A stretch of DNA of 64,000 nt from Bradyrhizobium stylosanthis. Its GTDB lineage: Bacteria; Pseudomonadota; Alphaproteobacteria; Rhizobiales; Xanthobacteraceae. Of the stretch, positions 1,852-51,651 are shown piece after piece. Location of the stretch: the NCBI RefSeq assembly GCF_001641335.1, contig NZ_LVEM01000001.1:2631-66630 (forward strand), written 5' to 3'. The notes below the pieces were generated by a model. It was not told the DNA's origin and ran no database searches. It saw nothing but the letters and a program-made list of their open reading frames with translations. Position 1 is the stretch's first letter. Each line of letters opens with the position of its first letter. Position numbers and translations under genes: made by a program.

Positions 1852-4149
1852 ATGTCCGGTATTGTTCTCTCTGCGTCGGTTCGTCAGAACCTCCTCTCTC
1901 TCCAGTCCACCGCCGATCTTCTCGCCACCACACAGAACCGTCTGTCGACCGGCAAGAGCGTCAATTCGGCCCTGGACAACCCCACCAACTTCTTCACCGC
2001 CCAGTCGCTCGACAACCGCGCCAGCGACATCAACAACCTGCTCGATGGCATCGCCAACGGCGTGCAGGTGCTGCAGGCTGCCAACACCGGCCTGACCTCG
2101 CTGCAGAAGCTGATCGACTCCGCGAAGTCGATTGCCAACCAGGCGCTGCAGACCACGGTCGGTTACTCCACCAAGTCCAACGTCTCCACCACCATCGCGG
2201 GTGCGACGGCGGCCGATCTGCGCGGCACGACCTCTTTTGCCAGCGCAACCGCAAGCAGCAACGTGCTCTATAACGGCACGGCCGGCGGCACCACGGCGGC
2301 GAACGGCACCACGACGCTCGGCGCCACCATCGGTGCCTTCACGGGCACGGCGGCAACGACCGGCGCGGGCGGCACCACGCTCCTGGGCGGCACCATCACC
2401 CTGATCGCCACCAACGGCACGAGCGCCAGCGGCCTTGCCGGCGTCGCCCAGCCCGCCGACGGCGACACGCTGACCGTGAACGGCAAGACCATCACGTTCC
2501 GCGCCGGCCTCGCGCCGGCCACGACCGCGCTTCCGGCCGGTTCGGGCCTGAGCGCCAACGGCCACCTCGTCACCGACGGTAGCGGCAACACCACCGTCTA
2601 TCTGGGCAGCACCGGCACGGCGTCGACGCTTGCGACCGCCGACGATCTCTTGACCGCGATCGATCTGGCCAGCGGCGTGGATACGGCGTCCATCACCGCA
2701 GGTGCTGCGACGATCACCAACAGCGTCAACCAGACGCCGTCGAGCATTGCCGGTACCGGCAAGGTGACCCTGCAAAGCTCGACCGGTGCGGATCTGAGCG
2801 TCACCGGCAAGGCGGACCTGCTCAATGCACTCGGCCTGACGACGTCTTCCGGTGCGGGCAATGCCACCATCAATGTCGCCCGGACCACGAGCGCGGCCTC
2901 GCTGGGGGCGACGATCACGGACGGTTCGACGCTGAATGTCGACGGCCACGTCATCACCTTCAAGAACGCGCCGACCCCGGGCTCGACCGGTGCGCCGGCC
3001 GTTCCGAGCGGATATGGTTCGAGCGGCGCAGTCGTCACCGACGGTAACGGCAACTCGACGGTCTACCTGCAGTCCGGCACGGTCAACGACGTGCTGAAGG
3101 CGATCGACCTTGCCACCGGCGTGCAGACCGCGACGATCAACGCCAATGGTACCGCGACGCTGGCGACCGCGACCGGCCAGTCGAACTCGACCATCAATAC
3201 GTCGGGTCAGCTCAAGATCTCGACTGGCATCAATGCCGATCTGTCGATCACGGGCACCGGCAACGCACTCAACGTGTTCGGTCTCGCCGGTAACACCGGG
3301 ACCGCGACCGCGTTTGCCGCATCACGGACCTCCGGCGTCGGCGGCATCGCCGGCAAGACCTTGACCTTCTCCTCCTTCAACGGCGGCACGGCGGTCAACG
3401 TCACCTTCGGCGACGGCACCAACGGCACGGTCAAGACGCTCGATCAGCTCAACACCAAGCTCCAGGCCAACAACCTGGCTGCGACGATCGACGCCAACGG
3501 CCTGCTGACCATCACCGCGTCCAACGACTACGCATCCTCGACGCTCGGCTCGATTGCGGCGGGCGGCGTGATCGGCGGCACGCTCACTTCGGCGCTGACC
3601 TTCTCGACGGCTTCCAACCCCGTCCAGGATGGCGTTGCCCAGACGGCGCGTGCCAACCTGGTGTCGCAGTACAACAACATCCTGAACCAGATCGACACGA
3701 CCTCGCAGGACTCCTCGTTCAACGGCGTCAACCTGCTCAACGGCGACCAGCTCAAGCTGGTGTTCGACGAGACCGGCAAGTCGAGCCTGAACATCACCGG
3801 CGTGACCTACAACTCCAAGGGTCTGGGCCTCGCCTCGCTGACCGTCGGCGTCGACTTCATCGACAACGCCGCCGCCAACCGGGTGCTGACCAACCTGAAC
3901 GCCGCCTCGAGCACGCTGCGCTCGGAGGCCTCGAGTCTCGGCTCGAACCTCTCGGTGGTGCAGATCCGTCAGGACTTCAACAAGAACCTGATCAACGTGC
4001 TGCAGACCGGTTCGTCCAACCTGACCCTGGCCGACACCAACGTCGAAGCCGCCAACAGCCAGGCGCTGTCGACCCGTCAGTCGATCGCGGTCTCCGCGCT
4101 GTCGCTGGCCAACACCTCGCAGCAGAGCGTGCTCCAGCTGCTCCGCTAA
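1852..4149 (+). CDS. fliC: flagellin, second tandem copy
   Basis: A 765-aa flagellin, far longer than enteric FliC (about 500 aa). It has the conserved N-terminal D0/D1 helices (residues 1-90, with LSTGKSVNSALDNP), a large variable middle and the C-terminal D1/D0 helices (about 620-765). The middle holds two tandem units of about 115 aa, each with the pattern DGxTLxVxGxxITF, a GN-S/T-TVYL strand and an AIDLAxGVxTAxI helix. These resemble flagellin hook IN-type modules; a degenerate third unit follows. The start is ATG 1852, with a weak Shine-Dalgarno about 10 nt upstream. The 5' leader is about 265 bp. Such long flagellins form the thick subpolar filament in Bradyrhizobium. Confidence 0.96.
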   Translation: MSGIVLSASVRQNLLSLQSTADLLATTQNRLSTGKSVNSALDNPTNFFTAQSLDNRASDINNLLDGIANGVQVLQAANTGLTSLQKLIDSAKSIANQALQTTVGYSTKSNVSTTIAGATAADLRGTTSFASATASSNVLYNGTAGGTTAANGTTTLGATIGAFTGTAATTGAGGTTLLGGTITLIATNGTSASGLAGVAQPADGDTLTVNGKTITFRAGLAPATTALPAGSGLSANGHLVTDGSGNTTVYLGSTGTASTLATADDLLTAIDLASGVDTASITAGAATITNSVNQTPSSIAGTGKVTLQSSTGADLSVTGKADLLNALGLTTSSGAGNATINVARTTSAASLGATITDGSTLNVDGHVITFKNAPTPGSTGAPAVPSGYGSSGAVVTDGNGNSTVYLQSGTVNDVLKAIDLATGVQTATINANGTATLATATGQSNSTINTSGQLKISTGINADLSITGTGNALNVFGLAGNTGTATAFAASRTSGVGGIAGKTLTFSSFNGGTAVNVTFGDGTNGTVKTLDQLNTKLQANNLAATIDANGLLTITASNDYASSTLGSIAAGGVIGGTLTSALTFSTASNPVQDGVAQTARANLVSQYNNILNQIDTTSQDSSFNGVNLLNGDQLKLVFDETGKSSLNITGVTYNSKGLGLASLTVGVDFIDNAAANRVLTNLNAASSTLRSEASSLGSNLSVVQIRQDFNKNLINVLQTGSSNLTLADTNVEAANSQALSTRQSIAVSALSLANTSQQSVLQLLR

Positions 4150-4179
4150 TAAGCGACTGAAATTACTAACGAAAATCGG

Positions 4180-4212
4180 GCGGCGAGGCGATTTGCCCCG
4201 CCGCTCTTTTTT
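4180..4212 (+). terminator. rho-independent terminator after flagellin 2
   Basis: The stem 4180-4189/4195-4204 has one A-C mismatch and is followed by TCTTTTTT. Confidence 0.85.
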
Positions 4213-4259
4213 GCGTCCGGAGGCGGGCAGGGGCGTTCACCGGCCATTAACCGTATCCC

Positions 4260-4285
4260 TTAAACCGCCGTTAACCATACTTTAA
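4260..4285 (+). promoter_or_regulatory. two overlapping perfect CtrA boxes
   Basis: Three TTAA blocks sit at 4260-4263, 4271-4274 and 4282-4285, each separated by exactly 7 nt, so two TTAA-N7-TTAA CtrA consensus sites share the middle block. Another TTAA lies at 4247-4250. The array is 84-109 bp upstream of flagellin 3. The CtrA assignment rests on the family consensus and was not tested. Equivalent arrays are absent from the leader of flagellin 2. Confidence 0.7.
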
Positions 4286-4368
4286 AGGACACCTCCTAAA
4301 ACTGGACGAAAGCCCGCTCTCCAGACCGCGCGGCCGATTCGTATCCGGTTCAAGAGGAAGTCTCGCCA

Positions 4369-6660
4369 ATGTCCAACATCGTTCTCTCGGCGTCAGTTCG
4401 CCAGAACCTGTTGTCGCTGCAGTCGACGGCCGACTTGCTGGCCACGACGCAGGAACGGCTGTCGACCGGCAAGAAGGTCAACACGGCGCTCGACAATCCC
4501 ACCAACTTCTTCACGGCGCAGGGACTGGACAACCGGGCGAGCGACATCAGCAACCTCCTGGACGGCATCAACAACGGTGTGCAGGTGCTGCAGGCAGCCA
4601 ATACCGGCATCACCTCGCTGCAGAAGCTGATCGACAGCGCGAAATCGATCGCCAACCAGGCGCTGCAGACCACGGTCGGCTATTCCACCAAGTCGAACGT
4701 CTCCACCACGATTCCCGGCGCGACGCCCGCCGATTTGCGCGGCACGACCTCCTATGCCAGCGCGACCGCCAAGAGCAACGTGCTTTATACCGGCGCCCCC
4801 GGTGGCGTGACCCCGGTGACGGGCACCGCCGCGCTCGGCGCTTCGCTGGGTTCGAGCGCCGGCACCTTCGCCGGAACCGGAGCGGTCGCCGCCGACGGCA
4901 CCACCGCACTGTCCGGCACCGCCACGCTGCTCGGCACCACGGCATCCTCCACCTTCGGCGCGGCGCCCGCGGATGGCGACACCATCACGGTGAACGGCAA
5001 GACCATCACCTTCCGCACCGGCATTGCTCCGGGCACCCAGCCGACCGGCTGGGGCCTCGATGCCAGCGGCCACATCGCCACCGACGGCAACGGCAATTCG
5101 ATCGTCTATGAGGGCACGCCGACCGCGCCCGGCGCGACCGTCAACGACGTTCTGACCGCGATCGACCTCGCCAGCGGTGTCAAGACCGCGACGATCAGCG
5201 CGAGCGCGGCGACCATCGCCATCAGCGGCTCGGCCGGTCCTGTCGGCACGCTTCAGGTGGCATCTTCCGCCACGGCGGGTGCGGTGACGCTGAAGAGCTC
5301 GACCGGTGCCGATCTGAGCGTGACGGGCAAGGCCGACTTCCTCAAGGCGCTCGGCCTGACCTCGGCGACCGGCGCCGGCAACGCCACCGTCACCGCCAAC
5401 CGGTCGACCACCGCAGGCTCGCTCGGCTCGCTGGTGCAGGACGGCTCGACGCTCAACATCGACGGCCACACCATCACGTTCAAGAACGCCCAGACGCCGC
5501 AATCGGCGGCGAGCGTGGCCAACGGCTTCGGCGTAAGCGGCAACGTCGTCACCGACGGCAACGGCAACTCGACGGTCTACATCCAGAGCGCGACGCTGAC
5601 CGACCTCCTGAACTCGATCGACCTTGCCACCGGCGTCAAGACCGCCAGCATCTTCAACGGCGCGGCGACCATCACGACCACGCCGGGCCAGATCCCGTCG
5701 TCGGTGAACTCGAGCGGCCAGCTCTCGCTCTCGACCGGCGTCAACGCCGACCTTTCGATCACCGGCACCGGCAACGCGCTCAACGCCTTCGGCCTCAGCG
5801 GCAACACGGGCACGGCGACCGCCTTCACCGCGGCGCGCACCTCGGGCGTCGGCGGCATCAGCGGCAAGACGCTGACCTTCACCTCCTTCAACGGCGGCAC
5901 GCCCGTCAACGTCACCTTCGGCGACGGCACCAACGGTACCGTCAAGACGCTCGACCAGCTCAACGCGCAGCTTCAGGCCAACCACCTGACCGCGACGATC
6001 GACGCCAACGGCGTGCTGACGGTGACCACCGTCAACGAATACGCCTCCTCGACGCTCGGTTCGACCACCGCCGGCGGCACGGTCGGCGGCACCATCACCG
6101 GTGTGCTGGCCTTCACCACGGCGCAGCCGCCGGTCCAGGATCCCGTCGCGCAGACGGCGCGCTCCAACCTGGTCAACCAGTTCAACAACATCCTCCAGCA
6201 GATCGACACGACGTCGCAGGACTCCTCCTTCAACGGCGTCAACCTGCTCAACGGCGATACGCTCAAGCTGGTCTTCAACGAAACCGGCAGCTCGACGCTC
6301 AGCATCAACGGCGTGGTGTTCAACGCGGCCGGCCTCGGCCTCAGCAACCTCGTCAACGGCGTCGACTTCATCGACAACGGCGCCACCAACAAGGTGCTGT
6401 CCAGCCTGAACGCCGCTTCGAGCACGCTGCGCTCGGAAGGCTCCTCGCTCGGTTCGAACCTCTCGATCGTGCAGGTGCGTCAGGACTTCTCCAAGAACCT
6501 GATCAACGTGCTGCAGACCGGCTCGTCCAACCTGACGCTCGCCGACACCAACGAGGAAGCGGCCAACAGCCAGGCGCTGTCGACCCGCCAGTCGATCGCG
6601 GTGTCCGCACTGTCGCTGGCGAACCAGTCGCAGCAGAGCGTGCTGCAGCTGCTCCGCTAA
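4369..6660 (+). CDS. fliC: flagellin, third tandem copy
   Basis: A 763-aa flagellin with the same architecture as the copy upstream: conserved N-terminal helices (1-90), two repeat modules in the variable region, and a C-terminal D1/D0 domain ending in QSVLQLLR. The variable region is clearly diverged from copies 1 and 2, which are closer to each other. It has small changes in the C-terminal domain, for example NEEAANSQ instead of NVEAANSQ. The start ATG 4369 is preceded by AAGAGGAAG, a good ribosome site. It differs from its neighbour in having CtrA-type boxes upstream, so the copies are probably expressed differently. Confidence 0.96.
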   Translation: MSNIVLSASVRQNLLSLQSTADLLATTQERLSTGKKVNTALDNPTNFFTAQGLDNRASDISNLLDGINNGVQVLQAANTGITSLQKLIDSAKSIANQALQTTVGYSTKSNVSTTIPGATPADLRGTTSYASATAKSNVLYTGAPGGVTPVTGTAALGASLGSSAGTFAGTGAVAADGTTALSGTATLLGTTASSTFGAAPADGDTITVNGKTITFRTGIAPGTQPTGWGLDASGHIATDGNGNSIVYEGTPTAPGATVNDVLTAIDLASGVKTATISASAATIAISGSAGPVGTLQVASSATAGAVTLKSSTGADLSVTGKADFLKALGLTSATGAGNATVTANRSTTAGSLGSLVQDGSTLNIDGHTITFKNAQTPQSAASVANGFGVSGNVVTDGNGNSTVYIQSATLTDLLNSIDLATGVKTASIFNGAATITTTPGQIPSSVNSSGQLSLSTGVNADLSITGTGNALNAFGLSGNTGTATAFTAARTSGVGGISGKTLTFTSFNGGTPVNVTFGDGTNGTVKTLDQLNAQLQANHLTATIDANGVLTVTTVNEYASSTLGSTTAGGTVGGTITGVLAFTTAQPPVQDPVAQTARSNLVNQFNNILQQIDTTSQDSSFNGVNLLNGDTLKLVFNETGSSTLSINGVVFNAAGLGLSNLVNGVDFIDNGATNKVLSSLNAASSTLRSEGSSLGSNLSIVQVRQDFSKNLINVLQTGSSNLTLADTNEEAANSQALSTRQSIAVSALSLANQSQQSVLQLLR

Positions 6661-46450: not shown

Positions 46451-47026
46451 TCAGCGGGCGTCGGGGAGAGCGCGGGCGGGCGTACCGTACTTGATCTGGC
46501 GATACTCGGGATACCATTTTGTGAAGTAGATCGCGCTGTTGCGGGCGGCGAAGGCGACCGCAAGGCTCGACCAGAGCGGCAGGCCGGGCACGTAGAGCAG
46601 CACGAGATTGGCGGCCGCCATCAGCAGCGCTGCCGCGGTCCAGGCGGCGGTAATGATGTAGTTGGCGCGGAGAAAACCGGGCATCGCCGCGGTCTCGGCC
46701 GGGACGGATTCGAGCGCATATTGCAGCGTGAAGGGACGGCGGAGCAGCATCGATCCCAGTGAAATGACGACGATGCCGACATCGACCGACAGCTTGACGC
46801 CGAGCGAGCCGAGCGCGGGGTCGACCAGCGCTAGGTAGAGGCCGATCGCCGCAAAGACGATCGCCGAGCCGACGGCCAGGATCTTCACCGAGCGGCCGCG
46901 CGCGACATCGAGTGCGACCGTGGCGAGGCAGATCGCGGAGGCCGCGAGCACGCTGATCGTGGCCGTCGTCACCAGCATCAGGAAGGTGTAGGCGCCGTAG
47001 GGCGCAAGGATCAGGAAAATCGCCAT
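46451..47026 (-). CDS. integral membrane protein, unknown family
   Basis: A 191-aa membrane protein with about five hydrophobic segments and a soluble C-terminal TKWYPEYRQIKYGTPARAL. No domain recognised. It heads the leftward operon with the IspZ-like gene. A perfect 8-3-8 inverted repeat lies 21 bp upstream of its start, identical in its arms to the one before the carotenoid oxygenase gene. So it is probably a TetR target. Confidence 0.75.
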   Translation of the reverse strand: MAIFLILAPYGAYTFLMLVTTATISVLAASAICLATVALDVARGRSVKILAVGSAIVFAAIGLYLALVDPALGSLGVKLSVDVGIVVISLGSMLLRRPFTLQYALESVPAETAAMPGFLRANYIITAAWTAAALLMAAANLVLLYVPGLPLWSSLAVAFAARNSAIYFTKWYPEYRQIKYGTPARALPDAR

Positions 47027-47046
47027 GGGCCGCCTCGGTCAGGTCG

Positions 47047-47065
47047 ATCTTTACGATGTAAAGAT
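47047..47065. promoter_or_regulatory. candidate TetR operator 1
   Basis: ATCTTTAC-GAT-GTAAAGAT, a perfect 19-bp inverted repeat before the membrane operon. The arms are identical to operator 3. Confidence 0.75.
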
Positions 47066-47098
47066 TAGTAGTCCGCGGACGGCGCCCGGTCAAGCGAA

Positions 47099-47117
47099 AT
47101 CTTTACAGTGTCAAAAT
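47099..47117. promoter_or_regulatory. candidate TetR operator 2 (imperfect)
   Basis: ATCTTTAC-AGT-GTCAAAAT: the left arm is intact and the right arm has two changes. It overlaps the stop of the 87-aa membrane gene. Confidence 0.55.
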
Positions 47118-47366
47118 CACGTAGGCGACCTCCAGCAGGTGGAGGGCTGCAACGGCCTGGTCGGACGCCTCCTCGGCCAATTCCGCCCAGGGCAGGCGCG
47201 ACAGCAGCGGCAGTGCGCAGGCGAGCAGCAGCCCGATAGTGAGCAGGATGCCGCCGTTGAAGAAGATGGGGCCATTCCGCCGCAACCGGATCATCTGAAT
47301 TACGAGCGCGCCGCCGGCGAGGGCGAGGAGGGCAAGCCAGGCCGCGATGATCGAGGGCATGTGCAT
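47103..47366 (-). CDS. small membrane protein, 87 aa
   Basis: Two hydrophobic segments (about 5-25 and 36-58) with a basic turn RLRRNG between them, so a hairpin membrane protein. ATG 47366 has AGAGG; ATG 47360 is possible. It follows the carotenoid oxygenase gene by 37 bp in the same direction, probably in its operon. No family recognised. Confidence 0.7.
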   Translation of the reverse strand: MHMPSIIAAWLALLALAGGALVIQMIRLRRNGPIFFNGGILLTIGLLLACALPLLSRLPWAELAEEASDQAVAALHLLEVAYVILTL

Positions 47367-47403
47367 GAAAGACCTCTCTGCGTTCGCGACGTCATTCCGC
47401 GCG

Positions 47404-48801
47404 TTACGCCGCGCCCACCCAATTGCCGTGAAAGCCGTCGGGCACGCGGTGGCCGAGCTGCACCAAGGCGGCGGGCCCGGCCTCGATGTCGGTAGCATTG
47501 AACACGGCGAGGTCGCTGCGGTTCTCCCGCGCGCGCCAGACCAAGGCGAGCAGCCAGCCGTCGCCCTCCGGTGCATCCTTCGACCGTTCGACGAAGACAG
47601 GCTCTGAAATGGTGTCGCCCGCCGGCAGCAGATAATGGCCGAGCCGCCTGCCGTTGCCGTCGACATGGACGATGCCGGACAGCGCACCGAACATCGGCAG
47701 CTTCGGATTGGCGCAGGCGTACCAGCCGTGCCGGCTCTTCAGCCCGGCGCGGCGATCGTCGATGCGCGGGAATTCGCCGGTGAGGTCGTCCAGGTAGGTC
47801 TGCTGGAAACGGTCGGTATTCCCTGAGAGATCGAAGCTCCAGCGGCAATGGCGGGCGCGCGATTTATCCGGATCGGTCGGCCGCCCGTCGGGATGCGGAA
47901 ACAGCGGCGCCTCCTCGAACTGCATGACGTCGGCGACGATACGGTTGTCCTCCTCCCACGCATTCATGATGTGGAAGACGTAGCAGGCCTCGCCGCGAAA
48001 CCATACGATGTCCTTCGCGGTGCCGCTGCGCTTCATCACGCCGACATAGGCGCCCTTGTCCGGCTCCCAGGCATAGGGCGGCCGTCCGCTCATCGCGCGT
48101 TCCATGCTGCCGGTGATGGGCAGGATCGGAAACAGCACATGGTTCGCGGTGACGATGAAGTCGTGCACCATGCTGGCATAGGGCGCCTCGAAACGTTCGA
48201 AGCGCGTGGCCCTGCCGGAAGCGTCGATCGATCCGTAGGAGAGGGCTGGTGTCAGCGGCCCCGCGGCGTTGTAGCCGAAGAACACCAGCTCGCCGGTGAC
48301 GGGGTCGACCTTCGGATGCGCGGTGAAGCTGCCGGCGACGCGGCCCTGATAGTTGTGATAGCCGCGCGTCGCCAGCGTGCCCGGCTCGATCTCGGTCGGC
48401 AGGTGCGCTTCTTCGAGTGCGAGCAGCTTGCCGGCGTGGAAGATGATGTTGGTGTTGGCGACGCCGCCGTCGGTGAGGTCTTTCGGTGCATCAGGCAGCT
48501 TGCGGCCGAAGCCGCCGAACAGCGCGCGGCCGGCGTCGTGCTCGGCCAGCCATTTCGGCGTGCGGATCCACCGGTTGCGGTAGCTGGCGCGGCCGTTCTC
48601 GAGGTGAAAGGCGTGCAGCATGCCGTCGCCCACGAACCAGTGCGCGCCGGGAGATTCGAACTGCGGATTGGGGCCGTTGCGATAGAGCACACCGTTGAGC
48701 TCCCGCGGCAATTCGCCGACGATCTTGAGGAAGGGGGCGTCGGCCTCGAACGGGATCGGCGCGATATTGTTGCGGCGCTCGGTGACGGCGTCGTGCTGCA
48801 C
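47404..48801 (-). CDS. carotenoid oxygenase family dioxygenase
   Basis: A 465-aa non-haem iron dioxygenase of the RPE65/carotenoid-cleavage family, which cleaves double bonds in apocarotenoids or stilbenes. The four iron-ligand His contexts are visible: FTAHPKVDP, MVHDFIVT, YVFHIMNAWEE and, at the C-terminus, DGFHGNWVG. The N-terminal ELNGVLYRNGPNPQFE block is typical. GTG 48801 is chosen because GGGGAGGA stands in front; a longer TTG start would place operator sites inside the gene. No carotenoid synthesis genes are nearby, so the substrate is open. Confidence 0.9.
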   Translation of the reverse strand: MQHDAVTERRNNIAPIPFEADAPFLKIVGELPRELNGVLYRNGPNPQFESPGAHWFVGDGMLHAFHLENGRASYRNRWIRTPKWLAEHDAGRALFGGFGRKLPDAPKDLTDGGVANTNIIFHAGKLLALEEAHLPTEIEPGTLATRGYHNYQGRVAGSFTAHPKVDPVTGELVFFGYNAAGPLTPALSYGSIDASGRATRFERFEAPYASMVHDFIVTANHVLFPILPITGSMERAMSGRPPYAWEPDKGAYVGVMKRSGTAKDIVWFRGEACYVFHIMNAWEEDNRIVADVMQFEEAPLFPHPDGRPTDPDKSRARHCRWSFDLSGNTDRFQQTYLDDLTGEFPRIDDRRAGLKSRHGWYACANPKLPMFGALSGIVHVDGNGRRLGHYLLPAGDTISEPVFVERSKDAPEGDGWLLALVWRARENRSDLAVFNATDIEAGPAALVQLGHRVPDGFHGNWVGAA

Positions 48802-48816
48802 GGCGTAGTCCTCCCC

Positions 48817-48835
48817 ATCTTTACATCGTAAAGAT
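48817..48835. promoter_or_regulatory. candidate TetR operator 3
   Basis: ATCTTTAC-ATC-GTAAAGAT, a perfect inverted repeat 15 bp upstream of the oxygenase GTG start, in its leader. Confidence 0.75.
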
Positions 48836-48869
48836 GGAATAGAGCTGATCGCGGCTTTCGTCAAGTGAA

Positions 48870-48888
48870 ATCTTTACACTGTCAATAT
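48870..48888. promoter_or_regulatory. candidate TetR operator 4 (imperfect)
   Basis: ATCTTTAC-ACT-GTCAATAT, 19 bp before the TetR start. The left arm is intact. Confidence 0.55.
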
Positions 48889-48907
48889 TGCGTCATATAG
48901 CTTGCAA

Positions 48908-49639
48908 ATGGCCAAGACCGACACCAAGAGCGAAACGGCACGAGGCGCGCGTGCCCCCAAGAGACCGACATCGGTTGCGGCATCGCGTCCGGCACGCCGC
49001 GCGGCGGGCGCGAAGACGGAGACGCCGTATCATCACGGCGCCCTGCGCGAAGCGCTGCTCCAGGCCGCCGAACGGGTGCTCGAGCGCGACGGGCTCGGAG
49101 GCCTGACCTTGCGCGCGGTGGCGCGCGAGGCGGGCGTCTCGCATGCGGCGCCGACGCATCATTTCGGCGATCTCACCGGGCTTCTCAGCGAGCTTGCAGC
49201 CGTCGGCTTCCGCCAGTTCAACGCCGCGATGGCCTCGTCCTGCGATGCCGCCACCACGCCGCTCGGGCGCGCGCTGGCGCGGCCGAAGGCCTATGTCGCC
49301 TATGCCCAGGCCCATCCCGGCATGTACGGCATCATGTTCCGCACCGAGCGGCTGGATTATTCCAGGCCCTCGCTGCACGAGGCGGCGGAGGCGTCCTTCG
49401 CCGGGCTTGCCAATGCCATCGGCGCGATGCGGCAGGAGCAGATCAGCGGCGATGCGCTGACGATGGAGCAGGGCGCCGCGATCGCGCGCGCCTGGTCGAT
49501 GGTGCACGGCTTCACCACATTGCTGCTCGACGGCCGCCTCGAGGACATTCTGGGGCGGCTGCCCGAGGGCACGACGGCCGAGCGGCTACTCGAGTCGATG
49601 TTGACGGCCCCCATCAGCGGCAAGCTGCCGGGGCCCTGA
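48908..49639 (+). CDS. TetR/AcrR-family transcriptional regulator
   Basis: A 243-aa regulator. A basic, low-complexity N-terminal tail of about 40 residues is followed by the HTH (about 41-90) with YHHGALREALLQAAERVLER and LTLRAVAREAGVSHAAPTHH. The ligand domain has TetR_C/WHG-like features (AYVAYAQAHPGMYGIMFR). Divergent from the carotenoid oxygenase gene, with operator 4 immediately upstream, so autoregulation is likely. No Shine-Dalgarno is seen before ATG 48908. Confidence 0.92.
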   Translation: MAKTDTKSETARGARAPKRPTSVAASRPARRAAGAKTETPYHHGALREALLQAAERVLERDGLGGLTLRAVAREAGVSHAAPTHHFGDLTGLLSELAAVGFRQFNAAMASSCDAATTPLGRALARPKAYVAYAQAHPGMYGIMFRTERLDYSRPSLHEAAEASFAGLANAIGAMRQEQISGDALTMEQGAAIARAWSMVHGFTTLLLDGRLEDILGRLPEGTTAERLLESMLTAPISGKLPGP

Positions 49640-49666: not shown

Positions 49667-50314
49667 ATGGTCGGGCGTTGGACCCGCATGGCCGGAACAC
49701 CGCGCGCTCCCTGGAAACGCTCGAACCCGCGCAAGCGGGCAGGCAAGGCGTCGAAGCATCTCACGCCCGCGCAGAAATCGGCGGCGAAAGCTCGTGCCCG
49801 CCGCGCCGGCCGCCGCTATCCCAACCTCGTGGACAACATGCGCATGGCTGCGAAGAAGACGTCCGGATCGTCGAAGGCAAAGACGTCGGCGAAGAAGACA
49901 TCAGCGAAGAAGACCCGCAAGCGCACCGCGAAGAAGGCTGCCAAGAAGACCGCAAAGTCCGCGCGCAAGCGCCGTGCCTCGGCGCGGGAGAAAGATCCGC
50001 GCGGCGGTCTGACCGCCGCCGGCCGCAAGGCCTTTGCGCGCAAGCAGGGCGCGCATTTGCGGCCCGGCGTCACCAAGAAAGAATCCGAGATGACGCCGCA
50101 GGAGATGCGGCGCAAGGGCAGTTGGGCGGTGCGCTTCTATGGCCGCGCGAAACTGCCGCCGCTGGTCGATGCGAAGGGACGGCCGACCCGCCTCGCATTG
50201 TCGGCGCATGCCTGGGGCGAGCCTGTTCCGAAGACGGTAGCGGCAGCAAGGCGCATTGCGGCAAAGGGCGAGCGCCTCCTGGCGCACTATCACCGCATCA
50301 AGGCGCGTGCCTAG
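49667..50314 (+). CDS. histone-H1-like lysine-rich protein with DUF6321-type domain
   Basis: A 215-aa very basic protein. Residues about 60-105 are AKKT/AKK repeats of the kind seen in bacterial histone-H1-like nucleoid proteins. The C-terminal part (about 110-190: GGLTAAGRKAFARKQGAHLR, then TPQEMRRKGSWAVRFYGRA) is a conserved domain of unknown function, recalled as DUF6321. It probably binds nucleic acid, which is inference from composition. Start is uncertain: ATG 49667 or ATG 49688, neither with a good ribosome site. A SET-domain gene lies 0.8 kb downstream. Confidence 0.75.
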   Translation: MVGRWTRMAGTPRAPWKRSNPRKRAGKASKHLTPAQKSAAKARARRAGRRYPNLVDNMRMAAKKTSGSSKAKTSAKKTSAKKTRKRTAKKAAKKTAKSARKRRASAREKDPRGGLTAAGRKAFARKQGAHLRPGVTKKESEMTPQEMRRKGSWAVRFYGRAKLPPLVDAKGRPTRLALSAHAWGEPVPKTVAAARRIAAKGERLLAHYHRIKARA

Positions 50315-50930: not shown

Positions 50931-51090
50931 GATGATGCCTTGATGGTGCGGGAACTCCCTTCATCAGACGTCTTGATTGTGGGCAAGGTTCAAACAAAGG
51001 CGGGATAGACCTGACAGCGGCGCGGAATCATTCTAGAAGGGCGGCTTGCCCGCGCTTACCGCGCTTTCGTTCGCGTCATCTCATTCGATC

Positions 51091-51651
51091 ATGCCAGTCA
51101 CCGCTTCCAGCAAATCCTACCGCGTCGGCCGCTCCAAGACCGGACTCGGCCTCTTCGCCACCATGCCGATCAAGAAAGGCACCCGGATCATCCGATATTT
51201 CGGACCGATTCTGGATTCGCGGATTCCCGAGCAGGACGACATCGAGAACAAATATCTGTTCGAGCTCAACGGCCGCTGGACCATCGACGGCTCGGTGCGC
51301 AAGAACGTCGCGCGCTACATCAACCATTCCTGCCGGCCCAACGCGGAGTCGGACGTCCGCCCGCGCGAGCGCAAGGTTTTCATCCGCGCCATCAAGAACA
51401 TCGAGCCCGGCGACGAGATCAACTACGACTACGGTACCGACTATTTCAAAGCCTATCTGAAGCCGATCGGTTGCAAGTGTCCGTCCTGCGAGAACAAGCG
51501 CAAGAAGCAGCGCGCCGAAGCCCGCGCCGAGCGCGCCAAGGTGAAGGCGCGCACCGAACGCAAGGCCGCGAAGGCGGCTCCCAAAGCCACCAAAAAGAAG
51601 AAGCTTAACGGTCACGCCGCTGGCAAGGCCAACGGCCGAGCGCGGGCGTAG
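51091..51651 (+). CDS. SET-domain protein (putative protein lysine methyltransferase)
   Basis: A 186-aa SET-domain protein. SAM and lysine-binding motifs are visible: TGLGLFATMPIKKGTRIIRY, the catalytic YINHSCRPNAESD (NHS core), GDEINYDYG and a post-SET CKCPSC cysteine cluster. The last 40 residues are Lys/Arg/Ala-rich. Bacterial SET proteins can methylate histone-like or ribosomal proteins. A histone-H1-like gene in the neighbourhood makes a substrate pairing attractive but unproven. ATG 51091 is chosen. Confidence 0.88.
   Translation: MPVTASSKSYRVGRSKTGLGLFATMPIKKGTRIIRYFGPILDSRIPEQDDIENKYLFELNGRWTIDGSVRKNVARYINHSCRPNAESDVRPRERKVFIRAIKNIEPGDEINYDYGTDYFKAYLKPIGCKCPSCENKRKKQRAEARAERAKVKARTERKAAKAAPKATKKKKLNGHAAGKANGRARA

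Follow-up and report, generated by a model that had tools for sequence, protein, structure and literature searches.

A carotenoid-oxygenase and membrane-protein module with paired operators, very probably under the control of its divergent TetR-family regulator, in Bradyrhizobium stylosanthis

Bacterial enzymes of the carotenoid-oxygenase (RPE65) family are the closest described counterparts of the gene set examined here, which lies in a 64 kb stretch of Bradyrhizobium stylosanthis DNA (the window) and comprises a TetR-family gene (product P0002), a divergent oxygenase gene (P0001) and genes for three membrane proteins (P0003; P0004, hereafter M191; and P0005; Table 1). In the excerpted accounts of these enzymes, the lignostilbene-type dioxygenase LSD4 binds the 4-hydroxyl of its substrate through Tyr-101 and Lys-134 (PMC8191317), PbLSD has a Lys where a carotenoid through-tunnel would open (PMC6097328), and NACOX1 and MtCCO take apocarotenoids as substrates (PMC5133782). 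LSD4 and PbLSD form the group closest to P0001 in sequence, but P0001 has Phe98 and Glu130 at the Tyr-101 and Lys-134 positions. MtCCO of Mycobacterium tuberculosis is, according to the same excerpt (PMC5133782), a carotenoid oxygenase from a species that makes no carotenoids itself, as is probably also the case here, although it has a separate NCBIfam model for which P0001 falls below the cut-off. The excerpt on nov1/Saro_0803 of Novosphingobium aromaticivorans describes a dedicated repressor that acts on a carotenoid-oxygenase-family gene and is released by a substrate-like ligand, which resembles what we propose below, whereas the regulator there is of the MarR type, its site is a 22-bp A/T-rich element, and the substrate is a stilbene (PMC10046596). 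SARO_RS18775 on pNL2 of N. aromaticivorans, which from species and annotated activity we infer to be the NACOX1 of the PMC5133782 excerpt, belongs like P0001 to the RPE65 family and lacks the stilbene-type Tyr and Lys (Gly and Val there). It also has a divergent TetR gene, whose product shares 35% identity with P0002, and paired sites of the class found here; it differs in that the enzyme is ∼35% identical to P0001, no M191, IspA or MAPEG gene is annotated adjacent, and the operators are of a variant form, ATGTT..AACAT, in pairs 26 bp apart. TetR control of an adjacent catabolic gene is an already known kind of arrangement, and a TetR gene presumably also lies next to the MtCCO gene. We know of no description of the regulon, the clade-wide site class, or the association with ABA4-like, NnrU and fusion proteins reported below, and searches of an open-access library listed none. 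The excerpt of PMC3420878 has no bearing on these genes.

The module is marked by an 8-3-8 palindrome, ATCTTTAC-N3-GTAAAGAT. Searching the window for this pattern with at most three mismatches gives four matches, compared with a mean of 0.02 and a maximum of 1 in 100 shuffles; the sites at 47047 and 48817 are perfect and those at 47099 and 48870 carry two mismatches each, which bears out what a sequence-only reading of the window had reported. Over all 22 contigs of the genome (8.8 Mb) there are no sites with 0–2 mismatches beyond these four. Four further matches with three mismatches all lie on other contigs, and since the forward pattern totals 8 matches against 6 for the reversed-pattern control (at most three mismatches), these 3-mismatch sites are noise. 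A chance origin of the repeat is ruled out by the shuffles together with the genome-wide uniqueness, and a genome-wide regulon in this strain by the lack of any further site with two mismatches or fewer. The sites fall into two pairs. One (48817/48870, spacing 53 bp) lies in the gap from which tetR and the oxygenase gene diverge, the other (47047/47099, spacing 52 bp) between the small open reading frame (ORF) of P0003 and the M191 gene, and the right arm GTCAAxAT belongs to the weaker member of each pair. The sequence-only reading had all four sites flanking every transcript of a block at 46451–49639. Four sites there are, not as four independent flankers but as two promoter-bracketing pairs, and the last gene, of the IspA/IspZ family, falls outside that block.

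Each pair brackets candidate −35 and −10 elements, with the inner site on the expected start point and the outer site upstream of the −35, and the outer oxygenase site also lies over a possible tetR −35. The paired sites are 52–55 bp apart in 115 of 117 oxygenase promoters (42 bp in the other two) and 52–54 bp apart in all 94 M191 promoters. Both promoter sets (133 and 104 loci, partly non-independent) conserve the −35 core that lies between the paired sites. The most likely start of the oxygenase, judged from the sequence, is GTG 48801 behind GGGGAGGA rather than TTG 48864, whose frame would cross the perfect operator.

Across Bradyrhizobium and related genera, both the site pairs and the order of the genes are widely conserved. 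The oxygenase is present in 136 of the 146 genomes of the genus, in 50 of 198 genomes drawn from the family at E <= 1e-60 (the weaker matches being other oxygenases, ∼36–42% identical), and in 11 of 297 genomes drawn from the order at E <= 1e-100, 9 of these 11 coming from the genus itself; for named relatives, 80 loci were kept out of 567 candidates. A site with at most one mismatch is found in 138 of 142 genus genomes, and the reversed pattern is absent among the matches listed. Presence of the site goes together with presence of the regulator. Of 128 de-duplicated oxygenase loci with enough upstream sequence, 117 have a divergent TetR gene together with a site and 10 have neither; one has the TetR gene without the site, and none has the site without the TetR gene. 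The split locus (L098, 70% identical) retains TetR and has four-mismatch sites only, while the ten loci without both come from a few related genera and some distant ones and so do not represent ten independent events. Among the 10 genus genomes without the oxygenase, 6 keep the site, and all 6 keep TetR, the site pair, and M191 (as a fragment in G030); no site with at most one mismatch was found in the remaining genomes G041, G048, G090 and G101.

Individual loci show variations on this arrangement. In locus L226 (genome G070, 3575–4864), the oxygenase lies in three pieces with an internal stop, and TetR, operators, M191 and IspA remain. In locus L092, from another genus of the family, the oxygenase and M191 are separated by an IspA-like ORF (4995–5318) that is truncated at its C-terminus and has an operator pair to itself; its IspA match of 22 bits is below the cut-off. 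The operators at +1441/+1496 in L074–L079 and L091 go with this variant. Finally, a record titled 'Frankia sp. RB7' (L156) contains the Bradyrhizobium module (92% identical) together with the operators and is probably mislabeled.

Relatives of P0002 at E <= 1e-28 occur in 31 of 385 genomes of the class, and 28 loci outside the genus, of the 31 matches listed, were analyzed as a wider clade. Within about 290 bp per locus, the same class of site is seen with at most three mismatches in 27 of 35 loci and with at most two in 22 of 35, against shuffled means of 0.075 and 0 over 200 rounds. The base at position 3 of each arm, left free in a separate comparison, follows the recognition-helix residue that aligns with His84 of P0002. 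With His at this position, the best site carries a left-arm C or a right-arm G in 33 of 34 loci (the exception is L243); with Arg, it has G..C in all three site-bearing loci (those of an oxygenase, the annotated apocarotenoid enzyme, and the Thauera fusion described below); with Asn, it has A on the left arm in four of four loci, which are spread over two parts of the tree. No site was found in five loci, the His-type L236, L258 and L275 and the Arg-type L272 and L273. The degenerate patterns postdate inspection of the sites, and the 41 covariation loci are related to one another and hand-picked, so these counts are not independent events. Since the half-site base tracks the helix residue, P0002 very likely binds these sites directly, and we regard this covariation as the strongest evidence that it does so.

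An alternative is that a different regulator uses the sites and that TetR is a neighbor by chance. This alternative would have to account for the co-presence and co-absence of TetR and site over the 128 loci, the covariation of helix and operator, and the recurrence of such sites next to TetR proteins of this family elsewhere in the class, and we regard it as highly improbable. The proposal that TetR controls a local regulon of the oxygenase and membrane proteins is supported by the site conservation, the co-occurrence and the covariation, and from these sequence comparisons we are highly confident that P0002 would regulate the module.

The partners of the wider clade bear on what such a regulon might be for. 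Divergent from the TetR gene in the 28 loci are an ABA4-like gene in 16, an NnrU gene in one, and an RPE65 oxygenase gene in one. A second membrane protein follows the ABA4-like gene in 15 of the 16 cases, and the one such protein that was scanned has no Pfam family. This TetR/ABA4-like/second-membrane-protein set is seen in many Alphaproteobacteria, where the site pairs are often 32–33 bp apart. In hand-picked annotated plasmids, the TetR partner is ABA4-like in Microvirga, NnrU in Caballeronia SBC2, and an annotated 8'-apo-carotenoid 13,14-cleaving dioxygenase in Novosphingobium; the R. leguminosarum, R. lentis and Caballeronia M1242 plasmids, also picked by hand, have no ABA4-like, NnrU or oxygenase partner. 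Both ABA4 and the NnrU superfamily (via Z-ISO) have members in plant carotenoid pathways. In a tree of 47 TetR sequences the partner types cluster (15 changes vs 25.4 when shuffled), with partner switching.

A further target appears in two of the oxygenase-less genomes (G098 and G030), where paired sites precede a fusion of 710–726 amino acids that joins an N-terminal M191-like membrane domain to a C-terminal flavin adenine dinucleotide (FAD) oxidoreductase. The FAD part matches the NCBIfam carotenoid isomerase model best (142 and 145 bits, cut-off 587), and the crtI family comes second. Plasmid pTX1 of Thauera sp. K11 encodes the same fusion (FAD part 49% identical) divergent from a TetR gene whose product is 38% identical to P0002, and the gap between the two genes holds two GTTTAC-N3-GTAAAC palindromes. 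Homology to the fusion's N-terminal domain suggests that M191 may be a membrane partner in polyene chemistry. Azospirillum plasmids also carry M191 homologues, and the neighbors inspected at the Azospirillum locus L246 include no carotenoid-type partner. In Cupriavidus metallidurans, an oxygenase 56% identical to P0001 has a TetR gene directly downstream on the same strand (34% identical to P0002) and no site; two Variovorax oxygenase loci have no TetR match, and the Streptomyces and Nostoc plasmid loci were uninformative.

P0003 itself has no MAPEG (PF01124) match in a Pfam scan, and the same position in the relative L036 encodes a full-length protein of 160 amino acids that matches MAPEG at E=3.3e-19. 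Since full-length relatives match MAPEG while P0003 does not, P0003 is, by sequence, a deletion derivative, a MAPEG protein minus its middle through an in-frame deletion, with the ORF kept across many species. In a de-duplicated set of 82 loci whose oxygenase is at least 84% identical, the ORF is 83–89 amino acids long in 34 and 137–160 in 12, and none is recognized in 36 under a start-motif rule. The small membrane protein of the sequence-only reading is thus present, its nature as a deletion form of MAPEG having been missed. The shortened ORF, seen also in L138 and others, is possibly a two-helix remnant that persists independently. P0005 reaches 51.1 of the 165.2 bits required by the NCBIfam IspZ equivalog, so it is a paralogous family member and not IspZ itself, and it too has a weak VC0807 match. 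An envelope setting of the module is suggested by predicted membrane helices, its sole basis.

In the B. stylosanthis genome no crtI gene scores above the cut-off; the best crtI-family match reaches 116 bits against a cut-off of 238, and we judge this ORF to be another FAD oxidoreductase. crtI is also lacking in nine of nine other Bradyrhizobium genomes tested. The genome has three matches to the squalene/phytoene-synthase family (PF00494), two side by side, which are probably hopanoid genes, and a third at C1:1177240. An endogenous carotenoid substrate is disfavored by the sub-cut-off crtI match and the probable hopanoid role of the adjacent pair. The same matches, in the absence of crtI above cut-off, would suit another explanation, that the TetR regulon serves membrane-lipid or isoprenoid quality control, with TetR sensing an endogenous long-chain or isoprenoid lipid product and the oxygenase acting not on carotenoids but on an endogenous polyene, a quinone tail or a hopanoid-pathway product. 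The membrane genes are moreover the most persistent targets, as the six site-bearing genomes without an oxygenase illustrate. No lipid-pathway gene, however, is conserved in the regulon among the loci studied, and the partner genes elsewhere are of carotenoid type; we consider this explanation fairly unlikely.

The reading we prefer is that a repressor controls a module for dealing with an apocarotenoid-like compound of external origin. Here we infer repression rather than activation, and likewise the inducer, the substrate and the role of the membrane proteins. TetR would act as a local repressor at two promoters, each with two operators about five helical turns apart, one immediately before the −35 and the other covering the transcription start, and would shut off the oxygenase with the MAPEG-derived protein, M191 with the IspA-family protein, and tetR itself. 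Release would come from a hydrophobic inducer, most likely apocarotenoid-like (non-phenolic, conjugated, of isoprenoid type), whose source would lie outside the cell, for example in plants or other soil microbes. The oxygenase would then cleave a double bond of the inducer or of its parent compound, and the membrane proteins may host, import or further convert the cleavage product. Given TetR regulation, an apocarotenoid-like substrate is marginally favored, and the reading as a whole stands at about an even chance.

A number of results weigh against this reading. A simple consensus promoter scan called 0 promoters here, so the promoter hexamers are drawn from sequence reading and conservation. 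The predicted fold of M191 (mean predicted local distance difference test score, pLDDT, 85) has no structural match in the PDB at E <= 0.001 and so gives no function. Other or unidentified partners, one of them DUF2306, make up 10 of the 28 wider-clade loci, and 8 of the 35 loci searched lack a site. When the two best first-look candidates were scored per genome, two fusion relatives were found among 385 class genomes, neither with a site or TetR nearby. Single-genome targets stray from the apocarotenoid theme, namely an M20 peptidase (G128) and a possible hydrolase near a lone site (G083). Nor does TetR go with carotenoid producers: crtI is present in 6 of 29 TetR-bearing genomes of the class (lacking in 23) and in 6 of 26 comparison genomes, a set picked by hand, not at random, from listed genomes without a match. 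The absence of crtI and the lack of TetR enrichment among its holders imply that the substrate is foreign, or is no carotenoid at all.

A further objection concerns the oxygenase itself, whose nearest relatives in sequence, and closest solved ones, are lignostilbene-type dioxygenases (PDB E 7e-97). Its best NCBIfam model, lignostilbene-alpha,beta-dioxygenase (414.8 bits, cut-off 800), also outscores NOV2 (332.1, cut-off 650) and the 8'-apo-carotenoid 13,14-cleaving dioxygenase NF052295 (308.2, equivalog cut-off 675), with all three below their cut-offs. These similarities, and the resveratrol-responsive regulator of a stilbene oxygenase gene on record (PMC10046596, in excerpt), would favor the same TetR regulon acting on a lignin-type stilbene, isoeugenol or another phenylpropanoid, as a catabolic outpost for root exudates or lignin. 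P0001 is clearly of the RPE65 family (PF03055, 445.5 bits, cut-off 27, residues 14–462), is the sole gene of that family found in the genome, and keeps its iron-ligand histidines in 150, 150, 150 and 149 of 150 aligned rows, which were not de-duplicated. In these rows, however, the Phe and Glu that replace the 4-hydroxyl-binding Tyr and Lys are kept in 149 and 148, and this replacement disfavors a stilbene substrate; the same positions are Gly/Val in the Novosphingobium apocarotenoid enzyme and Trp/Asp in L266. The partners of the TetR clade are of carotenoid-type families, and the module contains no aromatic catabolic gene. We find a stilbene-type substrate unlikely, and of the suggestion that the module handles an apocarotenoid or a stilbene, the stilbene half is disfavored, although similarity is highest to that group.

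The coordinates of the features are collected in Table 1. P0002 scores 36.4 bits against PF00440 (cut-off 24) and 52.4 bits against TetR_C_33 (cut-off 26.8). A lysine-rich basic protein (49667–50314) and a protein that by eye is SET-domain-like (51046–51651) are encoded beside the module, and comparison with a prophage library gave no relevant match. At L216 (G128:C134), the site pair ahead of the M20 peptidase lies at 3582/3635 with 3 and 0 mismatches, 53 bp apart; this gene follows a near-identical second M20 ORF, and the operator was possibly recruited to an amidohydrolase.

Table 1. Positions of module features in the window, and of wider-clade loci
Feature	Position	Strand	Details
TetR-family repressor P0002, 243 aa	48908..49639	+	PF00440 and TetR_C_33; recognition helix SHAAPTHHF with His84
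Carotenoid-oxygenase (RPE65) family enzyme P0001, 465 aa	47404..48801	-	iron ligands His 162, 213, 277, 458
Small membrane ORF P0003, 87 aa, two-helix size	47103..47366	-	internally deleted MAPEG protein
Membrane protein P0004 (M191), 191 aa	46451..47026	-	no Pfam family; weak NCBIfam VC0807 match
IspA/IspZ (YciB)-family membrane protein P0005, 184 aa	45884..46438	-	PF04279 54.7 bits, cut-off 28.7
Operator O1, oxygenase promoter	48817..48835	no strand	perfect 8-3-8 palindrome, immediately downstream of inferred -10
Operator O2, oxygenase promoter	48870..48888	no strand	2 mismatches; upstream of -35, over inferred tetR -35
Operator O3, ahead of membrane-gene pair	47047..47065	no strand	perfect palindrome immediately downstream of inferred -10
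Operator O4	47099..47117	no strand	2 mismatches; upstream of inferred -35, overlaps small ORF 3' end
Inferred oxygenase promoter	48836..48864	-	-35 TTGACG 48859-48864, 17 nt, -10 TATTCC 48836-48841; read by eye
Inferred membrane-gene promoter	47065..47093	-	-35 TTGACC 47088-47093, 17 nt, -10 TACTAA 47065-47070; read by eye
Inferred tetR promoter	48873..48901	+	TTTACA 48873-48878, 17 nt, TATAGC 48896-48901; sequence reading alone
Loci with TetR/ABA4-like/second-membrane-protein set	L252-L255, L257, L259-L263, L267, L268, L270, L274, L278		

Extended to the whole clade, the preferred reading of an exogenous apocarotenoid-like substrate leads to a tentative proposal, to which we give less than an even chance. 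An undescribed TetR clade with a readable code (His, Arg or Asn for C, G or A) would serve bacteria generally to sense and process foreign apocarotenoids, governing carotenoid-type proteins, namely RPE65 oxygenases, ABA4-like and NnrU proteins and the membrane/carotenoid-isomerase-like fusion, in bacteria that mostly lack crtI, with Bradyrhizobium as the oxygenase branch in the rhizosphere. If true, this would give a dated, testable function to the bacterial ABA4-like/DUF4281 proteins, the M191 family and the carotenoid-isomerase-like fusion, and likewise to a gene that is nearly core in Bradyrhizobium, a genus of central importance to agriculture, and the operator code would make the regulon readable from genome sequence. 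Plants release carotenoid-type compounds as signals, and root bacteria that make no carotenoids would own a dedicated inducible response to such compounds. For a soil and root-nodule bacterium, this switch-controlled gene set hints at little-known sensing and processing of carotenoid-type molecules by probable non-producers.

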